Positions 1 through 46,083 of a stretch of DNA of 64,000 nt are shown here, piece by piece. Origin of the DNA: Nymphaea colorata (taxonomy: Eukaryota; Streptophyta; Magnoliopsida; Nymphaeales; Nymphaeaceae). Where the stretch lies: contig NC_045145.1 of assembly GCF_008831285.2 (NCBI RefSeq), positions 4,320,723-4,384,722 of the forward strand. The letters run 5' to 3'. How positions within the stretch are numbered: the first letter of the stretch is position 1; the number at the start of each line of letters is the position of its first letter. Below the pieces are notes generated by a model that worked only from the letters and a program-made list of their open reading frames with translations, searched no databases and was not told the origin of the DNA. A program made the translations under genes and the position numbers.

Positions 1-2398
1 TTTATTGTGATTAAATTGAGTAAACAGATCAATACTCATGATCTACCTTGACTAAGTATGGCTAGTAAAGAGAAGATATAAACACATATGTTGAGTCTCA
101 TGCATCTAAATAACTTGATAGTTATTTGACCATCACAATAGAAGAAGAAGAATAAGAAGAAGAAGTTTGAAAACTAGTCTATTGTGTCATAAAACTGCTT
201 ACCTGGTTTTGTACTATCAGTTATAGGAAGGGAGCCACATGTAAGCTTGTATAGGAGTAGAATGGTTTGATAGAAGCCTGGGCATTGGGACCAGTACTTG
301 ACAGGAACTCAGTACCCAAACCAACCCAAGCCCCCATCCGGCTCAAAATTGGACATGGAGCCAGCCTAATAAATAAGGGTGGATGTTATTTGACCATCAC
401 AATAGGAGAAGAAGAATAAGAAGAAGAAGTTTGAAAACTAGTCTATTGTGTCATAAAACTGCTTACTTGGTTTTGTACTATCAGTTATACGAAGGGAGCC
501 ACATGTAAGCTTGTATAGGAGTAGAATGGTTTGATAGAAGCCTGGGCATTGGGACCAGTAATTGACAGGGACTCAGTACCCAAACCAACTCAAGCCCCCA
601 TCCGGCTCAAAATTGGACATGGAGCCAGCCTAATAAATAAGGGTGGATGTTGAGGCCGAGCCCCAGACCAAATCAGAGCTCGGGCTCCGGCCTGAAATCT
701 TTCTCTAAAAAATTAATTTTATATGTTTTCTTTATAAATTATATATTTAAATTTTAAAAATAAATAAATAAATTGAGCCATGACTACTGAGATATTGTTG
801 GGCTGGCTCGGGTGGACCCAACTTGGCCTAATAATTTACATATATTTTTTCACTATAAATATGTGTTTATATATTAAATCTGTATATTTTAAAACATTTA
901 CTTTTATGAAAATTGGGTTGGCCTAAGCCAAGCCCGACTTTCGATTTAAAACTTTAAAAATTTATATGTAAATCTAAAAAGTTTTAGCTTAATGTATATG
1001 AAAAGTTTCAAAATTTTTATTTCAGCTTTTGTTAAAATTTTGAAACTATAGTTTGACCTCTACAAAAAATTTATGACTCCACCCCCACTGGCCATGACCC
1101 CATAATGTTTATTTATTTATTTTATTTTTATACAAATATAACTCATAGCTTTGTGCAACAACCAGCATTAGATGATTGTTAAAGTTATGGTGAATAGAAT
1201 GTGGGGCTTGCTGACAACAATTGTTGAGAAAACTCAATGTGCTTTCATCAAATCAATTACTATTAATCATTTGTTGCAAGGTAAGAAAGATGAGGTGGCA
1301 TACCTCAAACAAGATCCATAGCAGAGTGTCATGGAGCTTCTTTTGAAACTGAATGCTTTGGATCAGTTTCCACCTTAGATGAGTTTAAAGTATACCGCCC
1401 AACCAGTGATACAAGCGGCGTAGCTATGAATTGTAGAACATTTTTATCCCTTTTAGAAAAGTATGCAATAAATCTGCTTTCAATTTATCGCCGTATTTTG
1501 CATTCGGGTATCTCTCTTCCAGCAGATTGCAGCTGTCGATTGAAAGGCGACCACAGAAACATAATTTTTGAAAGGAACAACTTTGAAAACGATAGATAGT
1601 GGTCAGATCCCTATCTCAATTTTTTTTTTCAAATTTACATGTAAATTTTAAAAAAATTTAATTGTCTTATATGCAAATCTTGAAAAATGATATTGGGTTT
1701 CTATTAAAATTCTGACTCCACTTATACATGCACGCTGCCCTCCAAACAATATGGGAGCCTTTTCAACTCATACCGTTCACACTCCTAATCTTCATCGCAC
1801 CTTCTCCACCATAGTGTGAGTTGGAAGCAAAAAGGTAGGCCTACTCGTTTTCATGCCAACAACACCGCCACGAAAAAGGTACACTATGGTTGCCCATGAA
1901 TTTGACTGTGAAATCCAATCCCTTTGCTTCTACCTAGCGAGTTACACCATTGTTCGGAGAGACGCCTAACTTGTGTAGCCCTTGCTCTGCAACAACTTGC
2001 ACCTGCACCTGCACCTTAACATGTGTAGCCCTTACTCTACCAATACAGTGCAGCCTAAGCAGTAGCGAGCCTCCACATGTGTAGTCTGTGTGGAGCAAGC
2101 TGAATCCCAAACTCATAATACATGAAAAAAGAATAAAAAAAAAGCAGGTTTGTAGTATTTGCCCATTCTTTTATTTCAAGTATTAGACCTGAGCTTAGAG
2201 TCAGGCTCTGGGTACCAGGTACTTGACTCGATGCTCAACTTTTAACTGGTGCATGAAAATTTAATATGCCAATATTATTAATAACAATAGTAGTCTTGTT
2301 TAATAAGCAAATTTAAGGCAAAAAATAATAAAAGGACTTGAAAAAAACATTTTTTCTACTAATTAAAAAATTTCCCTTTTTCTTTCGAGTGCGTGTGT
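1..2398. other. Upstream flank of UGT-C1, no gene seen
   Basis: AT-rich noncoding flank on the 5' side of UGT-C1. The same sequence lies upstream of C2 (about 12180-14571) and, more diverged, upstream of copy A (about 19640-21560). It contains a tandem repeat near its outer end and fragments that look like old hAT-type insertions, for example the stretch near 1075-1105 whose complement reads GGGGGTGGAGTCATAAATTT. No reading frame here resembles a known protein. Confidence 0.7.
121..649 (+). repeat. Tandem duplication, 2 x about 264 bp
   Basis: The unit starting GTTATTTGACCATCAC at 121 starts again at 385. Both copies run through the same GAAGAAGAAT tract, an ACATGTAAGCTTGTATAGG block and a GGGTGGATGTT end. 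The right arm carries the same two units (13949-14459). The homologous flank of copy A (about 21140-21400) has only one. Confidence 0.85.
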
Positions 2399-2549
2399 CA
2401 CGTGTACATGGAGTTTTTTTTTTCGTAAAGAAATGACATCGTGGTTGATTTAGTCAGGTTGATTCAGCTGTTGCCGTTAGTTATATGACGGACAGAGAAT
2501 GGTAAGTTCGTAGTTACTGCACATGTTGGTGAATCTGCAATTATAAAAG
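2399..2549 (+). promoter_or_regulatory. UGT-C1 promoter: G-box and TATA box
   Basis: A G-box core CACGTG lies at 2399-2404, about 220 bp before the ATG, and TATAAAAG lies at 2542-2549, about 75 bp before it. Both are at matching positions upstream of copy A, and the G-box is also upstream of copy B. That conservation is the argument that they are real promoter elements. The gene downstream is broken, so any transcript would be non-functional. Confidence 0.55.
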
Positions 2550-2739
2550 AGAGGGACAGAAAAGGAAATAGAGAGCAGGCTTTGCTGCAGAAGAGACGTC
2601 TGCAAAGAGGACGCAGAAGAAGAATGGCTATTCCACACGCTCTGGTCATCCCTTTCTGTGGGCAAGGCCACGTATCAGCGCTCTGGCAGATCATGGTATT
2701 GTTGTTAGCTTGGTCTACACTGAGTACACACATAGACAA

Positions 2740-5427
2740 TGAAAGAAAAGATGCAAGACTAAGATTTTTAAGTGGTTCGGAGTAAAATCCTACGTCCGCT
2801 GTCTCTCACACCTATTAGGTGATGAATGTGAGGTTCCCTTAATGTGAGAATTTATACATGATTTGTTGAAGAGATTGTTAAACAATCCTTCCTTGATTTT
2901 TTTGTTTCTATAATCCTTTCTTTCTCTTTTGATAAACGGACGTTGCCACTTTTCTTGCCTAGATTCTTGCCTTTGTGATCTTGATTGATTTCTCCAGATT
3001 TAACAAGAACAGTTGCCTTTTTGCTGGATTTGTCACGATCTTCATGATTTTCTTCAATCGCCATGTGATCTTGATTGATTTCTTCCAATCTAACGAGAAC
3101 AGTTGCCTTGTTGCTGGATTTGTCTTGATTTTCTTCATTTGTTGAACTGGCATGATCTCCACAATTTCCTTCATCCGGTGGACAGCTGTAACTATCAGCA
3201 GTTTGTGCGTTTACATCCCCCTTCAATCTCGAGCGTAGGTTGTAGCAAAGATCGAGATTGTGGCCTAGAGCTGTCAACCGATGATGGGGAAGAGGCTTGG
3301 TAAACATATCAGCTAGCTGATGAGTGGTCGAAATATATTGAGTAACTAACGATCCAAGAGCCACATTTTCTCATACGAAATGAAAATCAAGCTCAATATG
3401 CTTTATCCGAGAGTGATGTGCCGTTTTGATGGTGGATTGCAGGGCGGACAGATTGTCACATAACAACAAGAGAGATTGAGAAAGAAACATTCCAAGATCT
3501 CGAAGAATAAATGTGATCCAAGTGAGCTCTGCTATTGTTGTTGCAAGGGCACGATATTCAGCTTCACAAGAAGATCTTGCAACACTGTTGTTTTTTGGAT
3601 GCCCAAGAAATACAATTGGGGCCTAGAAAAGTGCAGTAGCCAGTGGTAGAACGACGAGTGGACGGACAGCCGGCCCAATCTGCATCAGAATAAGCTCGGA
3701 TTGATAATTTTCTGGGCTTAAAGAATTGCATTCCAAGAGAGATAGTGCCCTGAATATAATGAAGAATGCGTTTCAGCAGCTGAAAATGTCGCAGGGAAGG
3801 AGCATGCATAAACTGTGACGCATAACTAACAGCATAAGTGATGTCTGGTCGAGTGAAAGTAAGATATTGCAGAGCTCCAACATGACTGCGATACAACGTA
3901 GCATTGGGATATGCTTCTTCTTCTACAGTGCTGTTGTTATAGACATTAGTAACTATTGGCATAACAGTTGATCGGCATGATTGCATCTGAGCACGTTCTA
4001 GGATGTCCATAGCATAGCGTTGCTGATTGAGAAACAGGCCGAAAGCAGTGCGTTGGACTTGAATGCCTAAGAAGTAATGTAAGTCCCCAAGATCTGTCAT
4101 AGCAAAAGTACGAGATACTTCATTCTGAAAGGATGCAAGAAAAGTTGGACTGCACCCGGTGAGAATAATATCATCCACATATAAGAAAAGAATGGTTACA
4201 GTCGATTGTTGGAGTCTCACAAATAACGAAGGATCTGCAGAGCTGGCTTGAAAATTGTGAGAGAATAAAAATTGAGCAAAGCGATCATACCAACCTCACG
4301 GGGCTTGTTTAAGACCATATAGAGCATGATTTAATTTGCAAACATGGTGAGGAAACCGAGCATCTTGGAAACCTGGAGGCTGCTCAATAAAAACAGTTTC
4401 AGTCAAATATCCATTCAGAAATGCATTTTTGACATCAAGTTGTTTAAGAGGCCAGCCATACATAAGAGCAATAGAAAGTATGATCCGAATAGTTGCTGGT
4501 TTAACAACTGGTGAGAAGGTTTCAAGAAAATTCACGCCTTCAATTTGAGTATAGCCCTGGGCCACCAGCCTTGCTTTAAGTCTTTCAATGTGGCCTTCAC
4601 TATTCAATTTTGTTTTGTAAACCCATCGGCTGCCAATAATATGCATGGAGGGGTCACGAGGTACCAAGGTCCAAGTATCATTTGCAATCAAAGCTGTCAT
4701 TTCATCTTCCATAGCATGCCTCCAGCTGGGATGTTTAAGGGCAATGGAGAAATGTTTAGGTTCAGCGGGAGCAAGGGTAGTTAATATGTATTTGGGATTG
4801 AGTTTGACAATACCATGTTGAGAACGTGTGACCATAGGGTGAGACGGTCTGGTCATGGTATTAGGTAAGGCATTAGATGGGATAGGAGGAGGAGGACTAG
4901 GTGGCGATGGTGAAGGAGGAGGTGGCGAGCTAGGAGATGGCTCTGATACAATGAAAGAAAAGATGCAAGACTAAGATTTTTAAGTGGTTCGGAGTAAAAT
5001 CCTACGTCCACTGTCTCTCACACCTATTAGGTGATGGATGTGAGGTTCCCTTAATGTGAGAATTTATACATGATTTGTTGAAGAGATTGTTAAACAATCC
5101 TTCCTTGATTTTTTTGTTTCTATAATCCTTTCTTTCTCTTTTGATAAACAGACGTTGCCACTTTTCTTGCATAGATTCTTGCTTTTGTGATCTTGATTGA
5201 TTTCTCCATATTTAACAAGAACAGTTGCCTTTTTGCTGGATTTGTCATGATCTTCATGATTTTCTTCAATCGCCGTGTGATCTTGATTGATTTCTTCCAA
5301 TCTAGCGAGAACAGTTGCCTTGTTGCTGGATTTGTCTTGATTTTGTTCATTTGTTGAACTGGCATGATCTCCACAATTTCCTTCATCCGGTGGACAGCTG
5401 TAACTATCAGCAGTTTGTGCGTTAACA
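2740..5427 (-). mobile_element. Non-autonomous Copia LTR element (left arm)
   Basis: The element lies on the minus strand. LTRs of 476 bp are at 4952-5427 (5') and 2740-3215 (3'), each starting TGTTAACG or TGTAAACG and ending CTTTCA. The target duplication GACAA is at 2735-2739 and 5428-5432. The primer-binding site next to the 5' LTR (4940-4951, TTGTATCAGAGC) is one base off the usual initiator-tRNA-Met site. The polypurine tract GAAGGGGGA abuts the 3' LTR. Only about 1.74 kb of interior remains. Compared with the full-length relative at 40831-46007, everything from just after the PBS to the end of integrase (gag, protease, most of integrase) is missing, and the join lies at a short shared CCTAGCTC-type sequence. 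Confidence 0.92.
2852..4932 (-). pseudogene. Copia pol remnant: reverse transcriptase and RNase H
   Basis: The frame begins in the proline-rich linker after integrase (PSPPSPPPP) and enters reverse transcriptase (TWTLVPRDPSMH, RLVAQGYTQIEGVNF, LDVKNAFLNGYL). The catalytic YVDD is intact within FLYVDDIILTG. RNase H follows with the SDADWAGCPSTRRSTTG and TFTRPDITYAV blocks. Damage: one TGA after GLKQAP near 4297 (an Arg-to-stop transition) and a small deletion near 3585 that shifts the frame before the SCEAEYRA motif. The frame after the RNase H end (LADMFTKPLPHH) continues through the polypurine tract into the LTR and stops at 2852. Confidence 0.85.
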
Positions 5428-5784
5428 GACAAGTGATGGCGGCACTGCCTGAAAACTTTAGCAGCGACTATGCCGGAAGAATACGGGTGGTAACCATACC
5501 CGACGGCTTATCTACAGATGACGACCGCAAAGATGTCTGCAAGGTCTTGTCCAGCTCAATGAGCGCCATTCCGAGTTTCTTGGAGGAGCTCGTACTGAAG
5601 TTCAGTGAGAAGGATGAAGAGAAGAATACGTTTGTAATTGCCGATGGTGCGATGGGTTTTCTGTTTGATGTTGCCGAGAGGCTCAACCTTCCAAGAGCTG
5701 CCGTCTCAACTGCCTCAACCTGGACACTGGCCACTCTCCTCAACATTCCATTGCTTATTGAAGATGGAGTCATCGATGAAAATG

Positions 5785-7976
5785 GTAAATGGTTACTATT
5801 CTTGACCAAATGATTTGGATGTTTGGCATGTTTATGTTTCTTTTTATGTTTCTTTTTTAGCAGTGACACAGTGCTACAAACTTTTTATGAGAAAGTCAAA
5901 CTACAGTTTCAAAATTTTTAATTTTTAAAATTGCATAATATGTCTTGGGGTGTTGCCTTTGCCACGCTTTAACTTGTATGTTAGTGGTTTCCTTTTTACA
6001 CAAAGTTGAACGATCCAAGGATTTAAAACAGGAACTGGCCACCTACCAGCCCCTTTTTCAACTATTATGCCAACCCCCTTGAGGTTGCTTGCAAACACTA
6101 TTTGAAAATTGTTTTTAAGTTGTCTTCAAGTTTAATATGTTTGGATATGATCTTCATGGTCTCAAATAATATTTGACTAATATATATATTGGAATCAACT
6201 CATGTGGATGTTTGGCTAATCATTCACCAATTAATTGTTAATTTTATTCTTGTAGATCTTATTTATGCAACAAAATTAGTCAATTGGTTTCAACAACCGA
6301 ATTTTGTTTGCTTTGAGCCATCTAGAAAACAGTTGAAATTTAAATAGCATTCATAAAGAGTTGATCATGCATGTCTAGAATATGATTTTCTCGGATCCGC
6401 CATAATAGGAACCTTCTCATGTCTAGGTGCTTCAATTGACATATCCGGTTTGGGTCGCTCCATGATATTGAGATAAATATAATTTGAATCTGAATATCCG
6501 ACCAAACGGCTTAAGAAAATCAGTTATGAAAAAGTATAGGTTAACACTTGATAAGAAATCGGTTCGGATTTTGGATATGAAATGACATCTAATCATATTT
6601 GGATTTGAAGTTAAATAAATATCCAATCAAATGTTGGATTTGGATCGGGTTTAGTTATAAATAAATAGTTTACATGCAATTTTTATACATTTTGAATCAG
6701 TTCTTAACTTGTCGTAATGCAGTTCAGATCCAGTTTAAGAGTTTGATTCAGGTATAAAATTAAAATCAAAATTCAGCTTGTTAATCCAGATTCAGACATG
6801 ATATGGACTTCTTCATTCATGTTTGAGTTTGAATTCCAATTCAAATATTTGAAGGGTTTGTGAACATCGTGAAAAGGAAAGCATGATCAGTTTAGGGTAG
6901 CGAGTTTATTACTTTCATGATCAAAGAGAGAAATAATTTCTTATGATTTCTTAACAAATTTTCTGTTTCAACGGGTATCCGCAGGAAGAATAATTTTAAG
7001 GTCAAAGGGACCTTTAACACCAAGTCTTTACATGACCAGTCGATGACTATATGTAAGAGAGGTCATGTTTAAAATCAAGCCCGTGGGTTTAACCGAGTCA
7101 TTTCTGGATATGCTCTAACTGTCATGTACATAACTGTTGTGCAACTTAATTCCGTTTTGGCCCGTTCCATTGTTGAGATCGGGTGGCATAATACTGAATC
7201 TTTGATTTCTTCCTACCATCCAAGTTTTGAGATCCAAAGGGGTTGGTTTAGTGGGATAAGCCACATAGCAGTAAAGCAAACCCAAGGATTTAATACAAGT
7301 CATGAGCTCAAACCAGGCTCTAGCTCCTGCATGCTGATCTGGGTAAAGATTCTTACGTCTTAGAGTCCAAGGAGACTTCACCTCAGAGTTTTTCACCATT
7401 GAGAATGCTAGCAAAGGCGTAGGAAGTTAAACCAGCAAAGTTCTCTGCAATCAGAAAAGAAAAAGAGAGTCCACAGCTGCCGATTTGTATCAGCAAATCC
7501 TTTACACAAGAATATTTACCAGGAATGGGTGAGTCAAAAGAATACTTTCGTTTAGAAAACTACCTCCTCTTTAGCTACTCCTAAATACTGGCAAGGATCC
7601 TACATAAATTAGTTATTAATAAATTAATGCAAGACTAAAGTACTGGTTAGTACCTTAAAATTAGTGAATTACACCAAGGCTCCACTGTTCACGTCAGGCT
7701 AGAGTCATCACTTTCCTTCCTCTCACACCCACCCTGTTTAATTGGCAGGAGAGGGAGAGAAATGAATGGAAAAAAGGTCTCCCTTGTGGTTGGCACCACG
7801 GAATATGCATGCAGCTTGCCCTCCAAGAACTTAGGGTCTTGGTATTCCTTCTATTAAAAGTCCTCTCTACGGCAAGTGTAGTGCTATATGGTGATGCAAT
7901 TGGTCTCCGTCAACCACAACAGCTTTGCAATTTCTTCTCTATCAAGCAATTGAACTTGCTTCCTCCTCCATTTTGG
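5785..7976 (+). other. UGT-C1 intron, deletion scar and 3' flank
   Basis: From the splice donor to about 6885 this matches the intron of UGT-B read in the same sense. From about 6890 to 7130 it matches the sequence after the stop codon of UGT-B (55.9-56.25 kb), including a shared block around GTTTAACCGAGTCATTT. So exon 2 and the distal intron were lost in one deletion. From 7130 to 7976 I see no recognisable gene, and this part has no counterpart in the other arm. Confidence 0.65.
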
Positions 7977-8076
7977 NNNNNNNNNNNNNNNNNNNNNNNN
8001 NNNNNNNNNNNNNNNNNNNNNNNNNNNNNNNNNNNNNNNNNNNNNNNNNNNNNNNNNNNNNNNNNNNNNNNNNNNN
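7977..8076. other. Assembly gap of exactly 100 N
   Basis: A run of 100 N, the conventional placeholder for a scaffold join of unknown length. The inverted arm begins at the very first base after it. The orientation and distance of everything on its two sides rest on scaffolding, not on contiguous sequence. Confidence 0.99.
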
Positions 8077-9173
8077 TTTCATAACTGATTTTCTTAAGCG
8101 TTTGGTCGGATATTCAGATTCAAATTATATTTATCTCAATATCATGGAGCGACCCAAACCGGATATGTCAATTGAAGCACCTAGACATGAGAAGGTTCCT
8201 ATTATGGCGGATCCGAGAAAATCATATTCTAGACATGCATGATCAACTCTTTATGAATGCTATTTAAATTTCAACTGTTTTCTAGATGGCTCAAAGCAAA
8301 CAAAATTCGGTTGTTGAAACCAATTGACTAATTTTGTTGCATAAATAAGATCTACAAGAATAAAATTAACAATTAATTGGTGAATGATTAGCCAAACATC
8401 CACATGAGTTGATTCCAATATATATATTAGTCAAATATTATTTGAGACCATGAAGATCATATCCAAACATATTAAACTTGAAGACAACTTAAAAACAATT
8501 TTCAAATAGTGTTTGCAAGCAACCTCAAGGGGGTTGGCATAATAGTTGAAAAAGGGCTGGTAGGTGGCCAGTTCCTGTTTTAAATCCTTGGATCGTTCAA
8601 CTTTGTGTAAAAAGGAAACCACTAACATACAAGTTAAAGCGTGGCAAAGGCAACACCCCAAGACATATTATGCAATTTTAAAAATTAAAAATTTTGAAAC
8701 TGTAGTTTGACTTTCTCATAAAAGTTTGTAGCACTGTGTCACTGCTAAAAAAGAAACATAAAAAGAAACATAAACATGCCAAACATCCAAATCATTTGGT
8801 CAAGAATAGTAACCATTTACCATTTTCATCGATGACTCCATCTTCAATAAGCATTGGAATGTTGAGGAGAGTGGCCAGTGTCCAGGTTGAGGCAGTTGAG
8901 ACGGCAGCTCTTGGAAGGTTGAGCCTCTCGGCAACATCAAACAGAAAACCCATCGCACCATCGGCAATTACAAACGTATTCTTCTCTTCATTCTCACTGA
9001 ACTTCAGTACGAGCTCCTCCAAGAAACTCGGAATGGCGCTCATTGAGCTGGACAAGACCTTGCAGACATCTTTGCGGTCGTCATCTGTAGATAAGCCGTC
9101 GGGTATGGTTACAGCCGTATTCTTCCGGCATAGTCGCTGCTAAAGTTTTCAGGCAGTGCCGCCATCACTTGTC

Positions 9174-11850
9174 TGTTAACGCACAAACTGCTGATAGTTA
9201 CAGCTGTCCACCGGATGAAGGAAATTGTGGAGATCATGCCAGTTCAACAAATGAACAAAATCAAGACAAATCCAGCAACAAGGCAACTGTTCTCGCTAGA
9301 TTGGAAGAAATCAATCAAGATCACACGGCGATTGAAGAAAATCATGAAGATCGTGACAAATCCAGCAAAAAGGCAACTGTTCTTGTTAAATATGGAGAAA
9401 TCAATCAAGATCACAAAAGCAAGAATCTAGGCAGAAAAGTGGCAACGTCTGTTTACAAAAGAGAAAGAAAGGATTATAGAAACAAAAAATCAGGAAGGAT
9501 TGTTTAACAATCTCTTCAACAAATCATGTATAAATTCTCACATTAGGGAACCTCAATCCATCACCTAATAGGTGTGAGAGACAGTGGGCGTAGGATTTTA
9601 CTCCGAACCACTTAAAATCTTAGTCTTACATCTTTTCTTCATTGTATCAGAGCCATCTCCTAGCTCGCCACCTCCTCCTTCACCATCGCCACCTAGTCCT
9701 CCTCCTCCTATCCCATCTAATGCCTTACCTAATACCATGACCAGACCGTCTCACCCTATGGTCACACGTTCTCAACATGGTATTGTCAAACTCAATCCCA
9801 TATACATATTAACTACCCTTGCTCCCGCTGAACCTAAACATTTCTCCATTGCCCTTAAACATCCCAGCTGGAGGCATGCTATGGAAGATGAAATGACAGC
9901 TTTGATTGCAAATGATACTTGGACCTTGGTACCTCGTGACCCCTCCATGCATATTATTGGCAGCCGATGGGTTTACAAAACAAAATTGAATAGTGAAGGC
10001 CACATTGAAAGACTTAAAGCAAGGCTGGTGGCCCAGGGCTATACTCAAATTGAAGGCGTGAATTTTCTTGAAACCTTCTCACCAGTTGTTAAACCAGCAA
10101 CTATTCGGATCATACTTTCTATTGCTCTTATGTATGGCTGGCCTCTTAAACAACTTGATGTCAAAAATGCATTTCTGAATGGATATTTGACTGAACTGTT
10201 TTTATTGAGCAGCTCCAGGTTTCCAAGATGCTCGGTTTCCTCACCATGTTTGCAAATTAAATCGTGCTCTATATGGTCTTAAACAAGCCCCGTGAGGTTG
10301 GTATGATCGCTTTGCTCAATTTTTATTCTCTCACAATTTTCAAGCCAGCTCTGCAGATCCTTCGTTATTTGTGAGACTCCAACAATCGACTGTAACCATT
10401 CTTTTCTTATATGTGGATGATATCATTCTCACCGGGTGCAGTCCAACTTTTCTTGCATCCTTTCAGAATGAAGTATCTCGTACTTTTGCTATGACAGATC
10501 TTGGGGACTTACATTACTTCTTAGGCATTCAAGTCCAACGCACTGCTTTCGGCCTGTTTCTCAATCAGCAACGCTATGCTATGGACATCCTAGAACGTGC
10601 TCAGATGCAATCATGCCGATCAACTGTTATGCCAATAGTTACTAATGTCTATAACAACAGCACTGTAGAAGAAGAAGCATATCCCAATGCTACGTTGTAT
10701 CGCAGTCTTGTTGGAGCTCTGCAATATCTTACTTTCACTCGACCAGACATCACTTATGCTGTTAGTTATGCGTCACAGTTTATGCACGCTCCTTCCCTGC
10801 GACATTTTCAGCTGCTGAAACGCATTCTTCATTATATTCAGGGCACTATCTCTCTTGGAATGCAATTCTTTAAGCCCAGAAAATTATCAATCCGAGCTTA
10901 TTCTGATGCAGATTGGGCCGGCTGTCCGTCCACTCGTCGTTCTACCACTGGCTACTGCACTTTTCTAGGCCCCAATTGTATTTCTTGGGCATCCAAAAAA
11001 CAACAGTGTTGCAAGATCTTCTTGTGAAGCTGAATATCGTGCCCTTGCAACAACAACAGCAGAGCTCACTTGGATCACATTTATTCTTCGAGATCTTGGA
11101 ATGTTTCTTTCTCAATCTCCCTTGTTGTTATGTGACAATCTGTCTGCCCTGCAATCCACCATCAAAACGGCACATCACTCTCGGATGAAGCATATTGAGC
11201 TTGATTTTCATTTCGTACGAGAAAAGGTGGCTCTTGGATCATTAGTTACTCAATATATTTCGACCACTCATCAGCTAGCTGATATGTTTACCAAGCCTCT
11301 TCCCCATCATCGGTTGACAGCTCTAGGCCACAATCTCGATCTTTGCTACAACCTACGCTCGAGATTGAAGGGGGATGTAAACGCACAAACTGCTGATAGT
11401 TACAGCTGTCCACCGGATGAAGGAAATTGTGGAGATCATGCCAGTTCAACAAATGAAGAAAATCAAGACAAATCCAGCAACAAGGCAACTGTTCTCCCTA
11501 GATTGGAAGAAATCAATCAAGATCACATGGCGATTGAAGAAAATCATGAAGATCGTGACAAATCCAGCAAAAAGGCAACTGTTCTTGTTAAATCTGGAGA
11601 AATCAATCAAGATCACAAAGGCAAGAATCTAGGCAAGAAAGTGGCAACGTCCGTTTATCAAAAGAGAAAGAAAGGATTATAGAAACAAAAAAATCAAGGA
11701 AGGATTGTTTAACAATCTCTTCAACAAATCATGTATAAATTCTCACATTAAGGGAACCTCACATTCATCACCTAATAGGTGTGAGAGACAGCGGACGTAG
11801 GATTTTACTCCGAACCACTTAAAAATCTTAGTCTTGCATCTTTTCTTTCA
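9174..11850 (+). mobile_element. Non-autonomous Copia LTR element (right arm)
   Basis: The same insertion as in the left arm, here on the plus strand: 5' LTR 9174-9641 (468 bp), PBS TTGTATCAGAGC at 9642-9653, polypurine tract just before 11376, 3' LTR 11376-11850 (475 bp), target duplication TTGTC at 9169-9173 and 11851-11855. The interior again lacks gag, protease and most of integrase. The reverse transcriptase segment has additional small deletions near 10194 and 10215 that break the frame after NGYLTE. Confidence 0.92.
9590..11682 (+). pseudogene. Copia pol remnant: reverse transcriptase and RNase H
   Basis: Proline-rich linker, then the reverse transcriptase N-terminal half (to about 10190), then the YVDD-containing half (10371 onward) and RNase H (SDADWAGC near 10900). 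Frameshifts lie near 10194 and 11005, and a TGA follows GLKQAP near 10290. The catalytic YVDD and RNase H motifs are still readable. The C-terminal frame (11101-11682) passes through the polypurine tract at 11365-11375 into the 3' LTR. A one-base loss near 11635 changes the last codons relative to the left arm. Confidence 0.8.
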
Positions 11851-11869
11851 TTGTCTATGTGTGTACTCA

Positions 11870-14800
11870 GTGTAGACGAAGCTAACAACAATACCATGAT
11901 AGAGCGCTGATACGTGGCCTTGCCCACAGAAAGGGATGACCAGAGCGTGTGGAATAGCCATTCTTCTTCTGCGTCCTCTTTGCAGACGTCTCTTCTGCAG
12001 CAAAGCCTGCTCTCTATTTCCTTTTCTGTCCCTCTCTTTTATAATTGCAGATTCACCAACATGTGCAGTAACTGCGAACTTACCATTCTCTGTCCGTCAT
12101 ATAACTAACGGCAACAGCTGAATCAACCTGACTAAATCAACCACGATGTCATTTCTTTACGAAAAAAAAAACTCCATGTACACGTGACACACGCACTCGA
12201 AAGAAAAAGGGAAATTTTTTAATTAGTAGAAAAAATGTTTTTTTCAAGTCCTTTTATTATTTTTTGCCTTAAATTTGCTTATTAAACAAGACTACTATTG
12301 TTATTAATAATATTGGCATATTAAATTTTCATGCACCAGTTAAAAGTTGAGCATCGAGTCAAGTACCTGGTACCCAGAGCCTGACTCTAAGCTCAGGTCT
12401 AATACTTGAAATAAAAGAATGGGCAAATACTACAAACCTGCTTTTTTTTTATTCTTTTTTCATGTATTATGAGTTTGGGAAGCCTGTTTCAGCTTGCTCC
12501 ACACAGACTACACATGTGGAGGCTCGCTACTGCTTAGGCTGCACTGTATTAGTAGAGTAAGGGCTACACATGTTAAGGTGCAGGTGCAGGTGCAAGTTGT
12601 TGCAGAGCAAGGGCTACACAAGTTAGGCGTCTCTCCAAACAATGGTGTAACTCGCTAGGTAGAAGCAAAGGGATTGGATTTCACAGTCAAATTCATGGGC
12701 AACCATAGTGTACCTTTTTCGTGGCGGTGTTGTTGGCATGAAAACGAGTAGGCCTACCTTTTTGCTTCCAACTCACACTATGGTGGAGAAGGTGCGATGA
12801 AGATTAGGAGTGTGAACGGTATGAGTTGAAAAGGCTCCCATATTGTTTGGAGGGCAGCGTGCATGTATAAGTGGAGTCAGAATTTTAATAGAAACCCAAT
12901 ATCATTTTTCAAGATTTGCATATAAGACAATTAAATTTTTTTAAAATTTACATGTAAATTTGAAAAAAAAAATTGAGATAGGGATCTGACCACTATCTAT
13001 CGTTTTCAAAGTTGTTCCTTTCAAAAATTATGTTTCTGTGGTTGCCTTTCAATCGACAGCTGCAATCTGCTGGAAGAGAGATACCCGAATGCAAAATACG
13101 GCGATAAATTGAAAGCAGATTTATTGCATACTTTTCTAAAAGGGATAAAAATGTTCTACAATTCATAGCTACGCCGCTTGTATCACTGGTTGGGCGGTAT
13201 ACTTTAAACTCATCTAAGGTGGAAACTGATCCAAAGCATTCAGTTTCAAAAGAAGCTCCATGACACTCTGCTATGGATCTTGTTTGAGGTATGCCACCTC
13301 ATCTTTCTTACCTTGCAACAAATGATTAATAGTAATTGATTTGATGAAAGCACATTGAGTTTTCTCAACAATTGTTGTCAGCAAGCCCCACATTCTATTC
13401 ACCATAACTTTAACAATCATCTAATGCTGGTTGTTGCACAAAGCTATGAGTTATATTTGTATAAAAATAAAATAAATAAATAAACATTATGGGGTCATGG
13501 CCAATGGGGGTGGAGTCATAAATTTTTTGTAGAGGTCAAACTATAGTTTCAAAATTTTAACAAAAGCTGAAATAAAAATTTTGAAACTTTTTATATACAT
13601 TAAGCTAAAACTTTTTAGATTTACATATAAATTTTTAAAGTTTTAAATCGAAAGTCGGGCTTGGCTTAGGCCAACCCAATTTTCATAAAAGTAAATGTTT
13701 TAAAATATACAGATTTAATATATAAACACATATTTATAGTGAAAAAATATATGTAAATTATTAGGCCAAGTTGGGTCCACCCGAGCCAGCCCAACAATAT
13801 CTCAGTAGTCGTGGCTCAATTTATTTATTTATTTTTAAAATTTAAATATATAATACATATTTATAAAGAAAACATAAAAAATTAATTTTTTAGAGAAAGA
13901 TTTCAGGCCCGAGCCCGAGCTCTGATTTCGTCTGGGGCTCGGCCTCAACATCCACCCTTATTTATTAGGCTGGCTCCATGTCCAATTTTGAGCCGGATGG
14001 GGGCTTGAGTTGGTTTGGGTACTGAGTCCCTGTCAAGTACTGGTCCCAATGCCAGGCTTCTATCAAACCATTCTACTCCTATACAAGCTTACATGTGGCT
14101 CCCTTCCTATAACTGATAGTACAAAACCAAGTAAGCAGTTTTATGACACAATAGACTAGTTTTCAAACTTCTTCTTCTCCTATTGTGATGGTCAAATAAC
14201 ATCCACCCTTATTTATTAGGCTGGCTCCATGTCCAATTTTGAGCCGGATGGGGGCTTGAGTTGGTTTGGGTACTGAGTCCCTGTCAAGTACTGGTCCCAA
14301 TGCCCAGGCTTCTATCAAACCATTCTACTCCTATACAAGCTTACATGTGGCTCCCTTCCTACCAGGAAGGAGTTTTATGACACAATAGACTAGTTTTCAA
14401 ACTTCTTCTTCTTCTTATTCTTCTTCTTCTATTGTGATGGTCAAATAACTCTCAAGTTATTTAGATGCATGAGACTCAACATATGTGTTTATATCTTCTC
14501 TTTACTAGCCATACTTAGTCAACGTAGATCATGTGTATTGATGTGTTTACTCAATTTAATCACAATAAAGTAGTGGAAAACCACCAAATCATACTGCACA
14601 AGTAGCCTAGTGAGCAAGAAAAGTATTTTATCCTATCACCCAAAAAAACCTGAGATCATCCAAGCCCTTGTCTCTGTAAGGTACATGACTCATGCATTCA
14701 GTGCACGGAAATGCTACCCCCACCACGCTTTAACTTGCACATCAGTGGCCACCCATTTAAAATACAAAGAAGTTGACACCGAAGAGATTTAGAATGGAAA

Positions 14801-39143: not shown

Positions 39144-40836
39144 TTGGCCGCGTCTCAAAGGCGCTGTCAGATGTTGCTCCAGTCCATAGTTATTGGACAC
39201 AGGGTTTTTCTTGGTGATGACATTCTCCCGGCTTTGACCGCTCATTTTTTAGATTTCTACTCTAAGCCCCTTCGCTTCCGTGCCCCGTTGCCGGATTTTC
39301 ACCTCTCCCCCCTCTCTATCTCGTGCGCGATCACTCTTGAGCGGCCTTTCCGGCACCAAGAGATCAAGAACGCTGTCTAGGCCCTTCGCTCTGGTAAGGA
39401 GCCTGGCATTGATGGTTTTCCTATTGAATTTTTTCGCACCTTTTGGGAGGCTTATAGCGCCGATGTGTTTGAGTTTTGAGATGAATTTTCATTCAACTCT
39501 GTCTTCCTTAAAGAATTTAATCAAGTCACTTGTGTCTTGGTGCCTAAACATTCTAACCCTACGGACGTCACTCACTTTTGCCCGATCTCCATCTTAGGCA
39601 CTCCTTACAAGATTATTGCTAAGTTGCTTTCCTTATGGCATGTACCTGTTTTGCCGTCTATCATTAACCCCTTCCAGGTTGCCTTTATCAAGAGTCGCTG
39701 TTTGCAGGACGCTGTAGTTCTCGCCAATGAGGTTGTTCATTCCTTATACTGACTGCGTCTTCCTTTCTTCATCCTTAAGTTGGACATCTGTAACGCTTTT
39801 GATTCAGTCAGTTGAGAGTTTCTTTCTGACCTCCTCATGCACCTTGCTTTTAGTCCGTCGTTTAGGCAGTAGATCCTTCCACTTGTCACTGGGGCCCAGC
39901 TAGCGGTCTCCTTCAATGGGTTGTGTGGCGATTTCTTTTGTCCAGGTCGTGGCCTCCGTCAGGGTTGTCCGTTATCGCCGTTGCACTTCAACTTAATTGC
40001 TGAATGCTTTTCAGGTTTATTCCGTCACGCTGAAGTCGTAGGCTTCCTCACTCCGCACTCACTGCCCCACTTACAGGCCCTCTCCCCCCTTCAACTTAAT
40101 TGCTGAATTGCTGTTTGGCATTGCTTCCCGCCAATAGATTGTGAGAACTTGGCTTATCCTTCGAGTTTTCGAGCTCATCTCAGGTCTTTCTATTAATTCT
40201 TCTAAGTGTCACCTTTCTCTCATTCACGCAGATCCCGCCACGGTGCTTCTTGCGGAAGCTTGCTTTGGGTGCAAGGCTACTGGCCTGCCTATGGAATACT
40301 TGGGTCTTCAGATTATGTTGTCGCCTCCTGCACCCTCCTTTTGGGAAGGTGTGGAGCAGAAGCTCGTTGATTGCCTCAAGTGTTGGCAGGGAAGACTGCT
40401 TTCTCTCCCGGGTCATATTACTCTTACTAAGCACTTTCATGCGTCTGTTCCCCTCCATGCTCTGGCAGTCTTTCGACCTCCGGTGGCAGTTCTGAAAAGG
40501 TTTGACAAGATCATTCGTAAATTTATCTGGGATGGTGATCGGCCTTCAGATCACCTTGCACATTGGGATGTGGTTGTCCTTCCGCGTCTTCTTGGGGGTG
40601 CTGGGATTACCAACCTTAGTAAGGCTTGTGAGTCTTATTTGTGTTCTTGGTGGTGGTGTTTGGCAACTGAGCACTCTCTCATCACCTTGTTCTTTTGCTC
40701 CAAATTTGACCTGCCTCTCCCTAGTGTTTGGAGTACTTCCATCTCTCACACCTCTCCCTCCCACTTTTGGTGCGACCTGCTTTCTGCCCTTCCTCTCTTC
40801 CTCCGCCTTGCTGATCTCTCATCGTTCGCATGTTAA
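39144..40836 (+). pseudogene. LINE reverse transcriptase, catalytic box lost
   Basis: Blocks in order: SGKEPGIDGFPIEFF (39385-39430), VLVPKHSNPTDVTHFCPISI, NPFQVAFIKSRCLQDAVVLANE, LKLDICNAFDSV, PGRGLRQGCPLSPLHFNLIAE. The expected FADD catalytic box should follow within about 30 residues. Instead the text reads LPHLQALSPLQLNC and stops; the bases here are a second copy of a 20-bp phrase from 39986. The downstream thumb region continues from 40141 (LISGLSINSSKCHL, YLGLQIMLSPPAPSFW, KFIWDG, GGAGITNLSKACES). Several stops and frameshifts are present. Confidence 0.85.
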
Positions 40837-41293
40837 CGCACAATCTGCTGATCGTTACAGCTGCCCACCGGATGAAGGAAATTGTGGAGATCATGCCAGC
40901 TCAACGAATGAAGAAAATCATGAAGATCATAACAAATCCAACAAAAAGGCAACTATACCCATTAGATTTGAAGTGATCAATCAAGAAAGAACACCTCACA
41001 AGGTAGGGAATCTTGGCAAGAAAAGTGGCAACGTATCCTCATCAAAAGAGAAAGAAAGGATTATAGAAACTAGAAAATCAAGGAAGGATTGTTTGAATTT
41101 TAAACAAATCTGTAACAATCCCTCCAAGAATCGTGTATAAATTCTCTCATCAAGGGAACCTCACATCCATTGCCTAGTTGGTGTGAGAGATAGTGGATGT
41201 AGGATTTTTTAATCCGAACCACTTAAAATCTTAGTCTTGCATTTTTTCTTTCATGGTATCAGAGCCATCTTTGTGAGGATTATCGATTTCTCC

Positions 41294-42925
41294 ATGGCTT
41301 CCAGCGCATCCTCTTCGACCGGATCATCCTCTTCGTTCGTCATGGCAACTAAGTATCCATATCCTTCAACGGTTAATGTTGCAAATTTTGTCTCTATCAA
41401 ACTCTCTCACAAGAATTACTTGCTTTGGAAAACCCAAATGCTTGGACTCATTGAAAGCCAAGAAACGATGGGTTTTATAGAGGGACAAATCTCCAAACCG
41501 ACCTCCACCATTGAAATTGTTGAAAATGATGATGCCCGTTCTATCCCAAATCCAGAATTTCTTGCCTGGAAAAAATCAGACCGACTCCTTAGAGGGTGGA
41601 TCACTGGATCACTCTTTGAAGAAGTGCTAGGTCTTGTGGTCGGACTCCAAATCTCTTCTGAAGTTTGGAATGCTCTTATAAAGGTCTTTGCTAGAGAATC
41701 TAAAGACCGAGAATTTCTGTTAAACAGAAAATTGCAGACATTTCAAAAGCAAGATAAAACTGTTACTGAGTATATAACAAGTTTCAAAACCATATGTGAT
41801 GAGTTGGCAGCCATTGGGAAACCTCTGTCAGATCAAGACAAAGTTTATTGGCTCATAAATGGGCTTGGATCAAGTAATGAATCGTTTATGACATCGATAC
41901 TTCGACCTCCTATTCCTGCATATATTGATGTTGTCTCTCTGCTTGAAAGCCACGACAACATGAAAAACATCCATGGGTTTCAACTCAATCTTAATGCTGC
42001 GTTCATAAGCTAGCAAGTTCCGGTTCAACCCTCCTACTCTCACAATTACAGAGGACGTGATCATTATGCCAGAAAAAACAGCAACCCTCACTTCAACTCA
42101 CGAGGACGTGGATTTCCACCCGCTTCTCAATCTCATCCCACCAATACTCCAGCCAACACTGGGCGAAATACCACCCAGTCTTCAGTGAAAGCAGCATGTC
42201 AAATTTGTGGGTTGAGTAATCACACGACATTCAAATGCTACCACAGATTCAATCAGGCGTATCAGCCCAAAGATCTTCCAAAATTTTTTTCTACCGTTCA
42301 AGTTGCTGATCCTAATAATGCAGACTGGTATCCGGACGCTGGCGCAACTTCTCATGTTACAGATGATCCAGGTACACTCAAACATCTGATTAAATACCAT
42401 GGAACTGATTCAGTTATGGTTGGAAACAGGCAGCATTTACCGATAACTCATATTGCATCTACTAATCTTGATCTTGGAAATACGACTCTTCCTCTTGATA
42501 ATGTGCTGGTTGTTCCTACGATAAAGAAAAACCTTATTTCCGTAAGTCAGCTTACATCTTCTATGCCTTATGTCTTTGAGATTACATCTGATTCATTTGT
42601 GATTAAGGATAAGGAAACCAATCAGACGATTGCCAAGGGAGCTAGAGAGGGAGATTTATATGTGCTCAAGACCAGACCGAAGGTAGTATTCTTTTTTGAT
42701 CGTTTCAGGACAGCAACTTCAGAGATTTGGCACAGTCAGCTCGGGCATCCATTAGCTATGATCATTGATTTTTTGTCATCCAAGGGTAGAATAAATTTAG
42801 CAGCAAAAGCATCTATGTTTTCTATTTGTCAAAGTTGTCTATTGGAAAAAGCAACACGTTTGCCTTTTCTTCCATTAGAGGATGAATATTATGAACCTTT
42901 TGAAAAAATTCATTGTGATCTCTAG
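41294..42925 (+). pseudogene. Copia gag, zinc knuckle and protease
   Basis: The ATG at 41294 opens MASSASSSTGSSSS, then the gag domain (LSHKNYLLWKTQMLGLIES, SSEVWNALIKVFA, QDKTVTEYITSFKTICDELA). A TAG at 42011-42013 interrupts it; the same frame continues through the zinc knuckle CQICGLSNHTTFKC (CX2CX4HX4C, 42197-42238) and the protease site DAGATSH (42335-42355). The GAG-pre-integrase block EIWHSQLGHPLAM and CQSCLLEKATRLPF follow. The frame stops at TAG (42923-42925) just after HCDL, where the family has Trp. Confidence 0.88.
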
Positions 42926-43948
42926 GGACAAGCATCGATTGATTCATGTCAAAAATTTCGATATTATGCTCTCTTTGTTGATCACCATTCTCGATACTCT
43001 TGGATCTATCCATTAAAATCTAAGTCTAATTTTTTTGCAAAGTTTATGGAATTTTATAAGATGGTGAGTACGCAATTTGGAAAATCTGTAAAAAATTTTC
43101 AAAGTGATGAAGGTGGTGAATTTAATAGCAATGCATTTCTCTCTTATTTAAGAGAATGGGGAATAAAACATCTCAAGGCGTGTCCAAAAACACCTGAACA
43201 GAATGGGTTGGTGGAGCGGAAACACAGGTCAGTTACTGAACTTGGATTAACTCTACTGTTTCATAGTAATGTACCAGCAAAACATTGGGTGGAAGCCATT
43301 TCTACAGCTGTTTGGCTCATAAATCGGTTGTCGACGTCCACGCTCCAAATGCTAAGTCCATATGACAGCTTATTTCATAAACCTCCTGGCTATTCTTGCC
43401 TAAGGACTTTTGGGTGCAGATGTTTTCCCTACATCAAGAGCTACAACAAACACAAATTTGAACCCAAATCTTTACCATGTGTCTTCATAGGGTATAGTGA
43501 CCAACACAAAGGTTATCGCTGCCTTTATCCATTGACAAATCGGGTGGACATTTCAAGACACGTGGTGTTTGATGAAAAATGCTTTCATTTCAATCAAGGT
43601 TTGGCTAGCACACAACTGAATTACAACTTTGCTCATGATCTAGTGTCTTTCTCTCCCGTCACCACACAACCTAACCAGCCTGCTCTCATTGAAGTGAACC
43701 CTCATGATGTTGCGAAACTTCAAAATAGTGAACTAGAACCTCCCCTTTGTGCTCCTACTCTACCACCACCAGCCATGTCTCCCTTACCTTTATCACCACC
43801 AGAGTCGCCAGCCCTTAACTCACCATCGCCGCCTAGCTCACCAACCCTTCATTCACCATTGCCACATAGCTCACCTTCTCCAATCCCATCAAATGCCTTA
43901 CCCAATACCCTTACTAGACCGTCTCATCCTATGGTCACACGTTCTTAA
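42926..43948 (+). pseudogene. Copia integrase core
   Basis: Continues in frame after the TAG: ALFVDHHSRYSWIYPLKSKS, then NFQSDEGGEFNSNAF (second catalytic Asp), PEQNGLVERKHRSV (catalytic Glu), HWVEAISTAVWLINRLS, FGCRCFPYIKSYNKHKFEPK and VFIGYSDQHKGYRC. A proline/serine-rich linker (43740-43900) joins it to reverse transcriptase. A TAA at 43946-43948 replaces Gln. All domain motifs are otherwise intact. Confidence 0.9.
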
Positions 43949-45551
43949 TATGGTATTGTCAAACCCAATCCCAAATACATATTAACTACCCTTGCTCCTA
44001 CCGAACCCAGACATTTCTCCATTACTCTTAAACATCCCGGTTATAGGCAAGCTATGGAGGATGAAATGGCAGTTTTGATTGCAAATGACACATGGACCTT
44101 GGTACCTCACGATCCCTCCATGCATATTATTGGCAGCCGATGGGTTTACAAAACCAAATTGAATAGTGACAGCCACATTGATAGAGTTAAGGCAAGGCTG
44201 GTAGCACAGGGTTATACTCAAATTGAAGGCATGGATTTCCTTGAAACCTTTTCACCAGTTGTTAAACCAGCAACTATTCTGATCGTTCTCTCTGTTGCTC
44301 TCATTAATAGCTGGCCACTTAAACAACTTGATATCAAAAATGCATTTTTGAATGGCTATTTGACCGAAACTGTATTTATTGAGCAGCCTCCAGGTTTTCA
44401 AGATGATTGGTTTCCACATCATGTTTGCAAATTGAATTGTGCTCTATATGGCCTCAAATAGGCCTCGCGGGCTTGGTATGATCGGTTTGCTCAATTTTTA
44501 TTCTCTCACAATTTTCAAGTCAGCTCTGCAGATCCATCGTTATTTGTTAGACTCCAATAGTCGACTGTAACTATACTTCTATTATATGTGAATGATATCA
44601 TTCTCACTGGCAGCAGTCCAACTTTTCTTGCATCCTTTCAAAATGAAGTATATTGTACTTTTGCTATGACTGATCTTGGGGACTTACATTATTTCTTAGG
44701 CATTCAAGTTCAACACACTGCTTCCGGCCTATTCCTCAACCAGCAACGCTATGCTATGGACATTCTAGAACATGCTCAGATGCAATCATGTCGATCAACT
44801 GTTACCCCAATGGTTACTAATGTTTCCAGCAACAGCACTGTAGAAGAAGAAGCATATCCCAATGCTACATTGTATCGCAGTCTTGTTGGTGCTCTGTAAT
44901 ATCTTACATTTACTCGACCAGACATCACTTATGCTGTTAATTATGTGTCATAGTTTATGCATGTTCCTTCCCTGCGACATTTTCAGTTGTTGAGACGCAT
45001 TCTTCGCTATATTCAGGGCACTATCTCTCTTGGAATGCAATTTTTTAAGCCCAGCAAATTATCAATTCGAGCTTATTCTGATGCAGATTGGGCCGGATGC
45101 CACTCCACTCGTCATTCTACCACAGGCTACTGCACTTTTCTGGGCCCCAATTGTATTTCTTGGGCATCTAAAAAACAACAAAGTGTTGCGAGATCCTCTT
45201 GTGAAGCTGAATATCGTGCCCTTGCAACGGCAGAGCAGAGCTAACTTGGATCACATTCATTCTTAGAGATCTTGGACTGTTTCTTTCTCAACCTCCCTTG
45301 TTGTTATGTAACCATCTTTCCGCTTTGCAATCCACCATCAAAACGGCCCATCACTCCCGGATGAAGCATATTGAGCTTGATTTTCATTTCGTACGAGAAA
45401 AGGTGGCTCTTGGATCATTAGTTACTCAATATATTTTGTCCACTCATCAGCTAGCTGATATGTTTACAAAGCCATTGCCCCATCATCGTTTGATAGCTCT
45501 GGGCTACAATCTCAGTCTTCGCTACAATCTACGCTCGAGATTGAAGGGGGA
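43949..45551 (+). pseudogene. Copia reverse transcriptase and RNase H
   Basis: Motifs in one frame: MEDEMAVLIANDTWTLVP, RLVAQGYTQIEGMDFLETFSP, LDIKNAFLNGYLTE, FLGIQVQHTASGLF, then RNase H (SDADWAGCHSTRHSTTGY, SCEAEYRALAT, HHSRMKHIELDFHFVRE, STHQLADMFTKPLPHH). In-frame stops: TAG 44459, TAG near 44559, TAA near 44898, TAG near 44952. The catalytic YVDD reads YVND (Asp to Asn at 44591), which should abolish polymerisation. A small insertion near 45235 shifts the frame. The frame then runs through the polypurine tract into the LTR and stops at 45892-45894. Confidence 0.88.
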
Positions 45552-46083
45552 TGTTAACGCACAAGCTGCTGACCGTTACAGCTGCCCACTGGATGAAGGA
45601 AGTTGTGGAGATCATGCCAGCTCAACGAATGAAGAACATCATGAAGATCATAACAAATCCAACAAAGAGGCAACTATACCCGTTAGATTTGAAGTGATGA
45701 ATCAAGGAAGAACACCTCACAAGGCAAGGAATCTAGGCAAGAAAAGTGGAAACATATCCTCATCAAAAGAGAAAGAAAGTGGCAACGTATCCTCATCAAA
45801 AGAGAAAGAAAGGATTATAGAAACCAGAAAATCAAGGAAGGATTGTTTGAATTTTAAACAAATCTGTAACAATCCCTACAAGAATCGTGTATAAATTCTC
45901 TCATCAAGGGAACCTTACATCCATCGCCTAGTTGGTGTGAGAGATAGTGGATGTAGGATTTTTTAATCCGAACCACTTAAAATCTTAGTCTTGCATTTTT
46001 TCTTTCAATCTCCATCCTGACCCTTTTCACCTTCCCGTGAATTCACTTTTTCTTCTTGCTACCTGGCCTCCTTTGGTTCTAAA

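Follow-up and report, generated by a model that had tools for sequence, protein, structure and literature searches.

Does the pol frame of a plant Copia retrotransposon end with the internal region of the element, or does it continue as coding sequence into the 3′ long terminal repeat (LTR)? The question is raised by a 64,000-nucleotide stretch of Nymphaea colorata DNA (hereafter the window; contig C8 of a 408-Mb genome), in which a Ty1/copia element at 40831–46007 carries a pol frame that reads through the polypurine tract into the U3 region of the LTR, usually regarded as non-coding promoter DNA. The analysis presented here makes it probable that the U3 region of the 3′ LTR belongs to the pol coding sequence, in this element and in other Copia groups of this genome, and specifies a translated, loosely constrained tail. 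The sequence itself shows that the frame is open and terminates in or close to the TATA box; it also shows length changes in multiples of three that predate insertion, a deficit of stop codons, and a codon periodicity.

The window copy lies on the plus strand and is bounded by a 423-bp 5′ LTR (40831–41253) and a 456-bp 3′ LTR (45552–46007). The TG..CA ends of these repeats and a primer binding site (PBS) for tRNA-Met, TGGTATCAGAGCC at 41254–41266, are those of Ty1/copia elements, as is the domain order that Pfam recovered from successive pieces: Copia gag (PF14223), the integrase core rve (PF00665), and then RVT_2 (PF07727). The gag–pol frame (41294–45549) is decayed, with 7 in-frame stops among the 1285 codons between the ATG at 41294 and position 45150 and a frame change near 45150–45210. 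From 45211 to 45894, the frame is open over 227 residues; it includes LADMFTKPLPHH, crosses the polypurine tract GAAGGGGGA (45543–45551) as part of the translated string RLKGD, enters the 3′ LTR at 45552, and ends at a TAA codon (45892–45894) inside the TATA box TATAAAT (45890–45896). The U3-encoded C-terminal tail of pol thus spans 45550–45894, 114 codons followed by the stop. Pfam reported no family in 45211–45891, including no ribonuclease H (RNase H); the segment before the tract is presumably the RNase H end, named from the motif LADMFTKPL. A second example lies in the left arm of an inverted duplication elsewhere in the window, where the minus-strand pol end and tail (2852–3370) are open to their own TATA box, with 121 codons inside the LTR and a stop at 2852–2854. 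Both passages into the LTR had been described in the original prediction, as had the decay of the pol body and a 33-bp tandem duplication within the tail, all of which are borne out; the duplication occurs in the 3′ LTR of the window copy only and is absent from its own 5′ LTR.

Copies of the same family (designated L with a number) were collected by a DNA search (43 matches; best 40 of 135 candidates scored) and a protein search (163 matches; best 150 of 6644 scored), and all copy counts are therefore lower bounds. LTRs were placed in 22 copies, and the partial copy L052 was added; left out were L031, which duplicates the window copy, further duplicates and truncated copies, most of which lie on contig C16 or small contigs, and those relatives from the protein search, members of the same family, whose sequence was not read. 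Shared flanks indicated 14 independent insertions, with L037/L039/L040/L048/L049/L050, L033/L034, L042/L043, and the window arms/L044 counted as one each. The frame of the 3′ LTR is open to the TATA box in 8 of the 14 (the window copy, the arms, L032, L033, L035, L037, L041, and L052), and the position of the stop codon within the TATA box recurs in the other open copies. Tail length up to that point varies across independent insertions (102, 113, 116, 120, 131, and 134 codons). In a codon alignment, substitution stops in the reference frame occur in 3 of 41 LTR rows, all of them 5′ LTRs, a count that leans low because 14 of the rows were cut at the first stop or frame break. By eye, 5-bp target-site duplications flank L032, L035, L036, L038, L042, L045, L046, and the window arms. 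None flanks the window copy itself (TCGCA at 40826–40830 vs ATCTC at 46008–46012), which, with LTRs that differ by the 33-bp repeat, may be a recombinant.

These copies are old, with Kimura two-parameter distances of 0.021–0.064 between the 5′ and 3′ LTRs of 16 pairs, and because of that age an open tail in a dead copy does not by itself indicate selection, which has to be judged from changes that precede insertion. Differences between the two LTRs of one element record change after insertion, and the 16 pairs, from 12 insertions, were used in this way (L033 and L039, with partial 5′ LTRs, were left out; the 5′ LTR of L041 is possibly shared with a tandem neighbor). Over the first 300 bases, post-insertion substitutions show no preference among codon positions 1, 2, and 3 (55/56/57). 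Of the post-insertion insertions and deletions (indels), only 1 of 17 has a length divisible by three in U3, and none of 9 does in R–U5. For pre-insertion indels, in contrast, the count is 7 of 8; the lengths divisible by three are 81, 90, 9, 33, and 33 bp and two net lengths of 18 and 9 bp, and the exception is 11 bp. These pre-insertion indels were read by hand, after a 37-bp insertion belonging to one LTR had been deducted, and a 9-bp gap of L052 was excluded because a single LTR of that partial copy was read. The difference is significant (Fisher P = 1.3 × 10^-4, or 1.0 × 10^-3 with 5 of 6 when the two net cases are omitted). Tail columns that vary in at least two insertions are likewise uneven over codon positions 1, 2, and 3 (13/29/27; P = 0.037), and pol columns that vary in at least two rows number 21/10/27. 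The expected excess of indels in multiples of three thus holds for changes that precede insertion, and the 90-bp internal repeat spacing noted in the arm LTRs was recovered as well (self-matches 111–187 and 201–277). As for L041, a further pol end and polypurine tract lie before its upstream LTR (L041:5741–5842), an arrangement that resembles a tandem LTR–internal–LTR–internal–LTR.

The frame also stands out within single U3 sequences. Fourteen were tested, 5 from the main family, picked among the open ones, and 9 from other Copia groups. The frame that continues pol (frame 0) contains 0–1 stops in all 14, compared with 4.5–9.5 expected from dinucleotide shuffles (P < 0.04 throughout and ≤0.0095 in 12; for the window copy, 0 stops vs 6.1 expected, P = 0.002), and it alone has the lowest stop count in 13. 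Codon position 1 is highest in G and position 3 highest in T in every one of the 14, with a permutation P of at most 0.023 for the periodicity in each; two pieces of pol gave 1.6 × 10^-9 and 1.4 × 10^-4. Among 3024 overlapping control segments from both strands of the window, 0.8% have no stop, 3.3% have at most one, 4.9% show periodicity at P < 0.01, and 0.8% have both a stop count of one or less and P < 0.03.

The tails from other groups came from pieces at ten places among hits of 39–46% identity whose alignment continued past the polypurine tract; one, L052, belongs to the main family. By our own reading, the other nine form five further Copia groups, {L051, L057}, {L053}, {L054}, {L055, L056, L059, L060}, and {L058}, with the same layout as the main family. 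From the tract to the first in-frame stop, the frame spans 118 codons in L051, 65 in L057, 87 in L053, 99 in L054, 127 in L055, 106 in L058, and 156 in L060, and it is open up to the end of the piece in L056 (158 codons) and L059 (133); L053, L055, and L057 each have one early stop. The stop lies just upstream of the TATA box in L051, inside it in L053 (second stop), and in a TATTTAA stretch in L058, and the frame runs beyond the TATA box in L054, L055, L056, L057, and L060. A search with the L051 end gave 155 matches (best 150 of 724 candidates scored); among those listed, 66 rows span the tail, 30 without a stop, 19 with one, and 17 with at least two, by a hand count that includes 5′ LTR copies. 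A separate observation concerns the region 3′ of the TATA box, where the R/U5 motif GTGGATGTAGG..CCGAACCAC of the window copy (45947–45976, plus strand) has counterparts in L051, L053, L054, L055, L057, L058, and L060. These elements show little similarity in U3, yet all of them carry this GTGGACGTAGG..CCGAACCACGT-like motif, with some mismatches. The two ends of the motif can pair, and the available part of a citrus LTR-marker paper contains parts of it.

What would such a tail be? In LTR retrotransposons, the U3 of the 3′ LTR is included in the mRNA, which makes translation of the tail possible. A transcript started in the 5′ LTR would end in R of the 3′ LTR, placing U3 inside the mRNA, and ribosomes would continue across the polypurine tract into U3. 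After RNase H, the translated protein would carry a hydrophilic, charged, and probably disordered tail of ~100–160 residues, fast-evolving and under weak sequence constraint, kept mainly as tolerated and mildly useful, perhaps for solubility or for contact with chromatin or nucleic acid; a shorter 3′ untranslated region (UTR) may be a second benefit. The same DNA would also serve as the U3 promoter, which would limit the reach of the frame. Hydrophobic residues fall below the shuffled-codon level in frame 0 of 12 of the 14 U3s (P < 0.05; exceptions L054 and L057). A structure model of 147 residues, computed from 11 sequences, has low confidence (mean predicted local distance difference test score, 53), with one helix in the tail; it fits a disordered tail, though so few sequences went into it. 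The string SK.KE...ET near the tail end is common to 10 main-family rows and L051, and constraint on a peptide is inseparable there from constraint on a promoter because the DNA is alike too. A known domain was set aside as a description of the tail, as nothing rose above weak, chance-level matches.

Several observations weigh against a translated tail. Searches of Pfam, NCBIfam, and the PDB gave the tail no match of weight. In 2 of the 14 main-family insertions (L038 and L047), an 11-bp deletion brings the stop ~8 codons early, and in 4 (L036, L042/L043, L045, and L046) the tail in the 3′ LTR is frameshifted, with L036, L045, and L046 retaining an open 5′ LTR. The nine diverged tails were selected because their tblastn alignment reached the tail, and among the remaining remote hits are some whose long open frames end at the tract (e.g., C4:17673841 and C2:24651475). 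Periodicity reached only P = 0.067 in the RNase H end, and the R–U5 control lacks periodicity, yet consists of only two copies of 36–37 codons. In neutral simulations, 2.7–2.8 stop positions are expected on internal branches, and none arise there in 7% of runs, so that openness on these branches is only suggestive.

The ratio of nonsynonymous to synonymous substitution (omega) belongs on the same side. Codon models were fitted to 14 main-family tails, 11 from 3′ LTRs and 3 from 5′ LTRs, selected for an open frame or else cut back to the point where the frame breaks. The pol end gave an omega of 0.52, and 0.14 on internal branches (twice the log-likelihood difference, 2ΔlnL, 29). The main-family tail gave 0.87, not significantly below 1 (2ΔlnL 0.64), and 0.69 on internal branches, again not significant (2ΔlnL 1.46); without the last 22 columns, the values were 0.80 and, internally, 0.53 (2ΔlnL 3.2). 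Because wrong frames of the same tail gave 1.32 and 0.75 (the latter for frame +2), the ratio does not single out frame 0 in this family. A ratio below 1 was found for the deeper group L055/L056/L060 only, where a three-sequence fit gave 0.58 (2ΔlnL 7.5) and frames +1 and +2 gave 1.31 and 0.89. Pairwise values were not significant for L055/L056 (0.74), L059/L060 (1.06), or L051/L057 (0.73), and frame +2 fell below frame 0 in L051/L057 (0.58; 2ΔlnL 2.7) and likewise in L059/L060. Judged from these alignments, amino acid constraint on the tail is weak. The original suggestion of selection on a protein therefore stands in part: the indels in multiples of three, the stop deficit, the periodicity, and the LTR-pair control indicate that the frame was kept open in moving lineages, and the substitution ratio of the main-family tail does not bear the suggestion out.

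An omega near 1 in a frame that stays open is what would be expected if the frame were kept for the sake of translation itself. Read-through to the TATA box would shorten the 3′ UTR and avoid nonsense-mediated decay, with selection acting on openness and solubility and not on sequence. The 3′ UTR would be at most 113 nt with read-through, compared with up to 456 nt if the frame stopped at the start of the LTR, and the stop falls in the TATA box of the open main-family copies and of L053 and just upstream of it in L051. According to the available part of one report, long 3′ UTRs trigger mRNA decay in plants (PMC3711448). Against such an account, the frame runs beyond the TATA box in L054, L055, L056, L057, and L060, and the constraint on codon position 1 and the weak purifying selection in one group suggest some constraint on a product. 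To our knowledge, moreover, Copia lineages with far longer LTRs, such as BARE/Angela and SIRE, lack an extension of this kind. We regard selection for a short 3′ UTR as possible and as the runner-up to a translated tail. A wider version, slightly more doubtful still, would extend to a whole plant Copia group of many families, in which the U3 promoter would form the last part of pol up to the TATA box, kept open less for the peptide than for a short 3′ UTR, so that LTR length, promoter, and frame co-evolve.

Neither of these accounts is needed if the frame is a by-product of the DNA. Constraint on enhancer repeats in units of three and on purine tracts could leave a frame open, and the internal repeats spaced 33 and 90 bp apart and the purine-rich segment that precedes the TATA box, which is similar between groups in its DNA too, are in keeping with this. 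Constraint of this kind predicts neither a deficit of stops in a single phase nor a difference between indels from before and after insertion, 9-bp changes included, and we consider it unlikely. Composition alone is still less probable, indeed very improbable. T makes up only 17–24% of these A-rich U3s, which might yield open frames by chance, and L055, L059, and L060 have a second frame with just one stop. However, the shuffles, which retain 4.5–9.5 stops where 0–1 are seen, and the phase of the signal, with frame 0 solely lowest in 13 of 14 U3s and the coding phase present in 14 of 14, disfavor it. A translated, loosely constrained tail remains the preferred reading.

The surroundings of the element have a history of their own. 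Window positions 1–14569 form a large inverted duplication, whose listed arm pairs are 93–100% complementary and which holds an internally deleted element twice; L044 (C8:4386500–4396200) contains a further copy. The LTRs of the left-arm copy (minus strand) were placed at 4952–5427 (5′) and 2740–3215 (3′). In the right-arm copy (plus strand), the tail is interrupted by frameshift, in the 5′ LTR (9174–9641), which has more than one, as in the 3′ LTR (11376–11850). L031, a second, inverted copy of the full-length element on the same contig (C8:4412180–4420776), is identical across the 597-bp query, which suggests that this segment was duplicated recently in inverted orientation. The copies L020–L026 and L028–L030, mostly on contig C16, are broken off in U3 and, by eye, fused to leucine-rich-repeat-like sequence (LRVLSLRGCEMDELL..); they were probably multiplied alongside a resistance-gene-like cluster.

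Translation of the tail would mean that the LTRs of these elements, solo LTRs included, hold sequence derived from coding DNA, that LTR evolution is coupled to a reading frame, and that annotation ending at the polypurine tract omits the tail of RNase H. In any genome, selection on sequence encoded by an LTR can be judged against a neutral control that the element itself supplies, the comparison of its 5′ and 3′ LTRs.

Coding sequence that uses the U3 of the 3′ LTR has retroviral counterparts in nef of human immunodeficiency virus and sag of mouse mammary tumor virus; these are separate accessory genes, whereas here pol itself is extended. Among plant elements, an overlap of this length had at first not been recognized, but there are precedents, known to us from the available portions of the reports cited here. 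In the centromeric chromoviruses of CRM group A, coding sequence extends into the 3′ LTR (PMC3059260). Those are Gypsy elements in which the LTR-encoded tail continues from integrase and forms a conserved motif, whereas the tails described here follow the RNase H end of a Copia element and are hardly alike between groups; with its Copia-type domains and no CRM-like CR motif, the window element does not belong to CRM group A. The beet chromoviruses Bingo1–4 and Bingo7 also have a gag–pol frame that extends into the flanking LTR, a feature shared with the window element although they belong to the Gypsy superfamily; in non-CRM clades, the chromodomain lies upstream of the polypurine tract (PMC3605345). 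The available portions of PMC6317226, PMC7264820, PMC2576258, and PMC9784723 describe no such extension in Copia elements, and a search of the open-licence literature found no fuller description for Copia, though an earlier one may exist elsewhere. Within Copia, the precedent is Jc8, a family of the Ale lineage in Jatropha curcas, whose pol exceeds into the 3′ LTR (PMC3852365), just as the frame of the window copy passes the polypurine tract without a stop and enters the LTR. In Jc8, one of two Jatropha Ale families with no nucleotides between LTR and PBS, the PBS directly adjoins the LTR, as in the window copy, where the LTR end TTTCA is followed at once by TGGTATCAGAGCC, a string that recurs in that report; the Jc8 LTR measures only 210 bp, compared with 423 and 456 bp here, and the available portion of the report states neither the length of the tail nor where it stops, nor any selection test (PMC3852365). 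Beside these precedents, what seems new is the length of the tail, its end at the TATA box, its recurrence across several Copia groups within a single genome, and a test with a built-in control.
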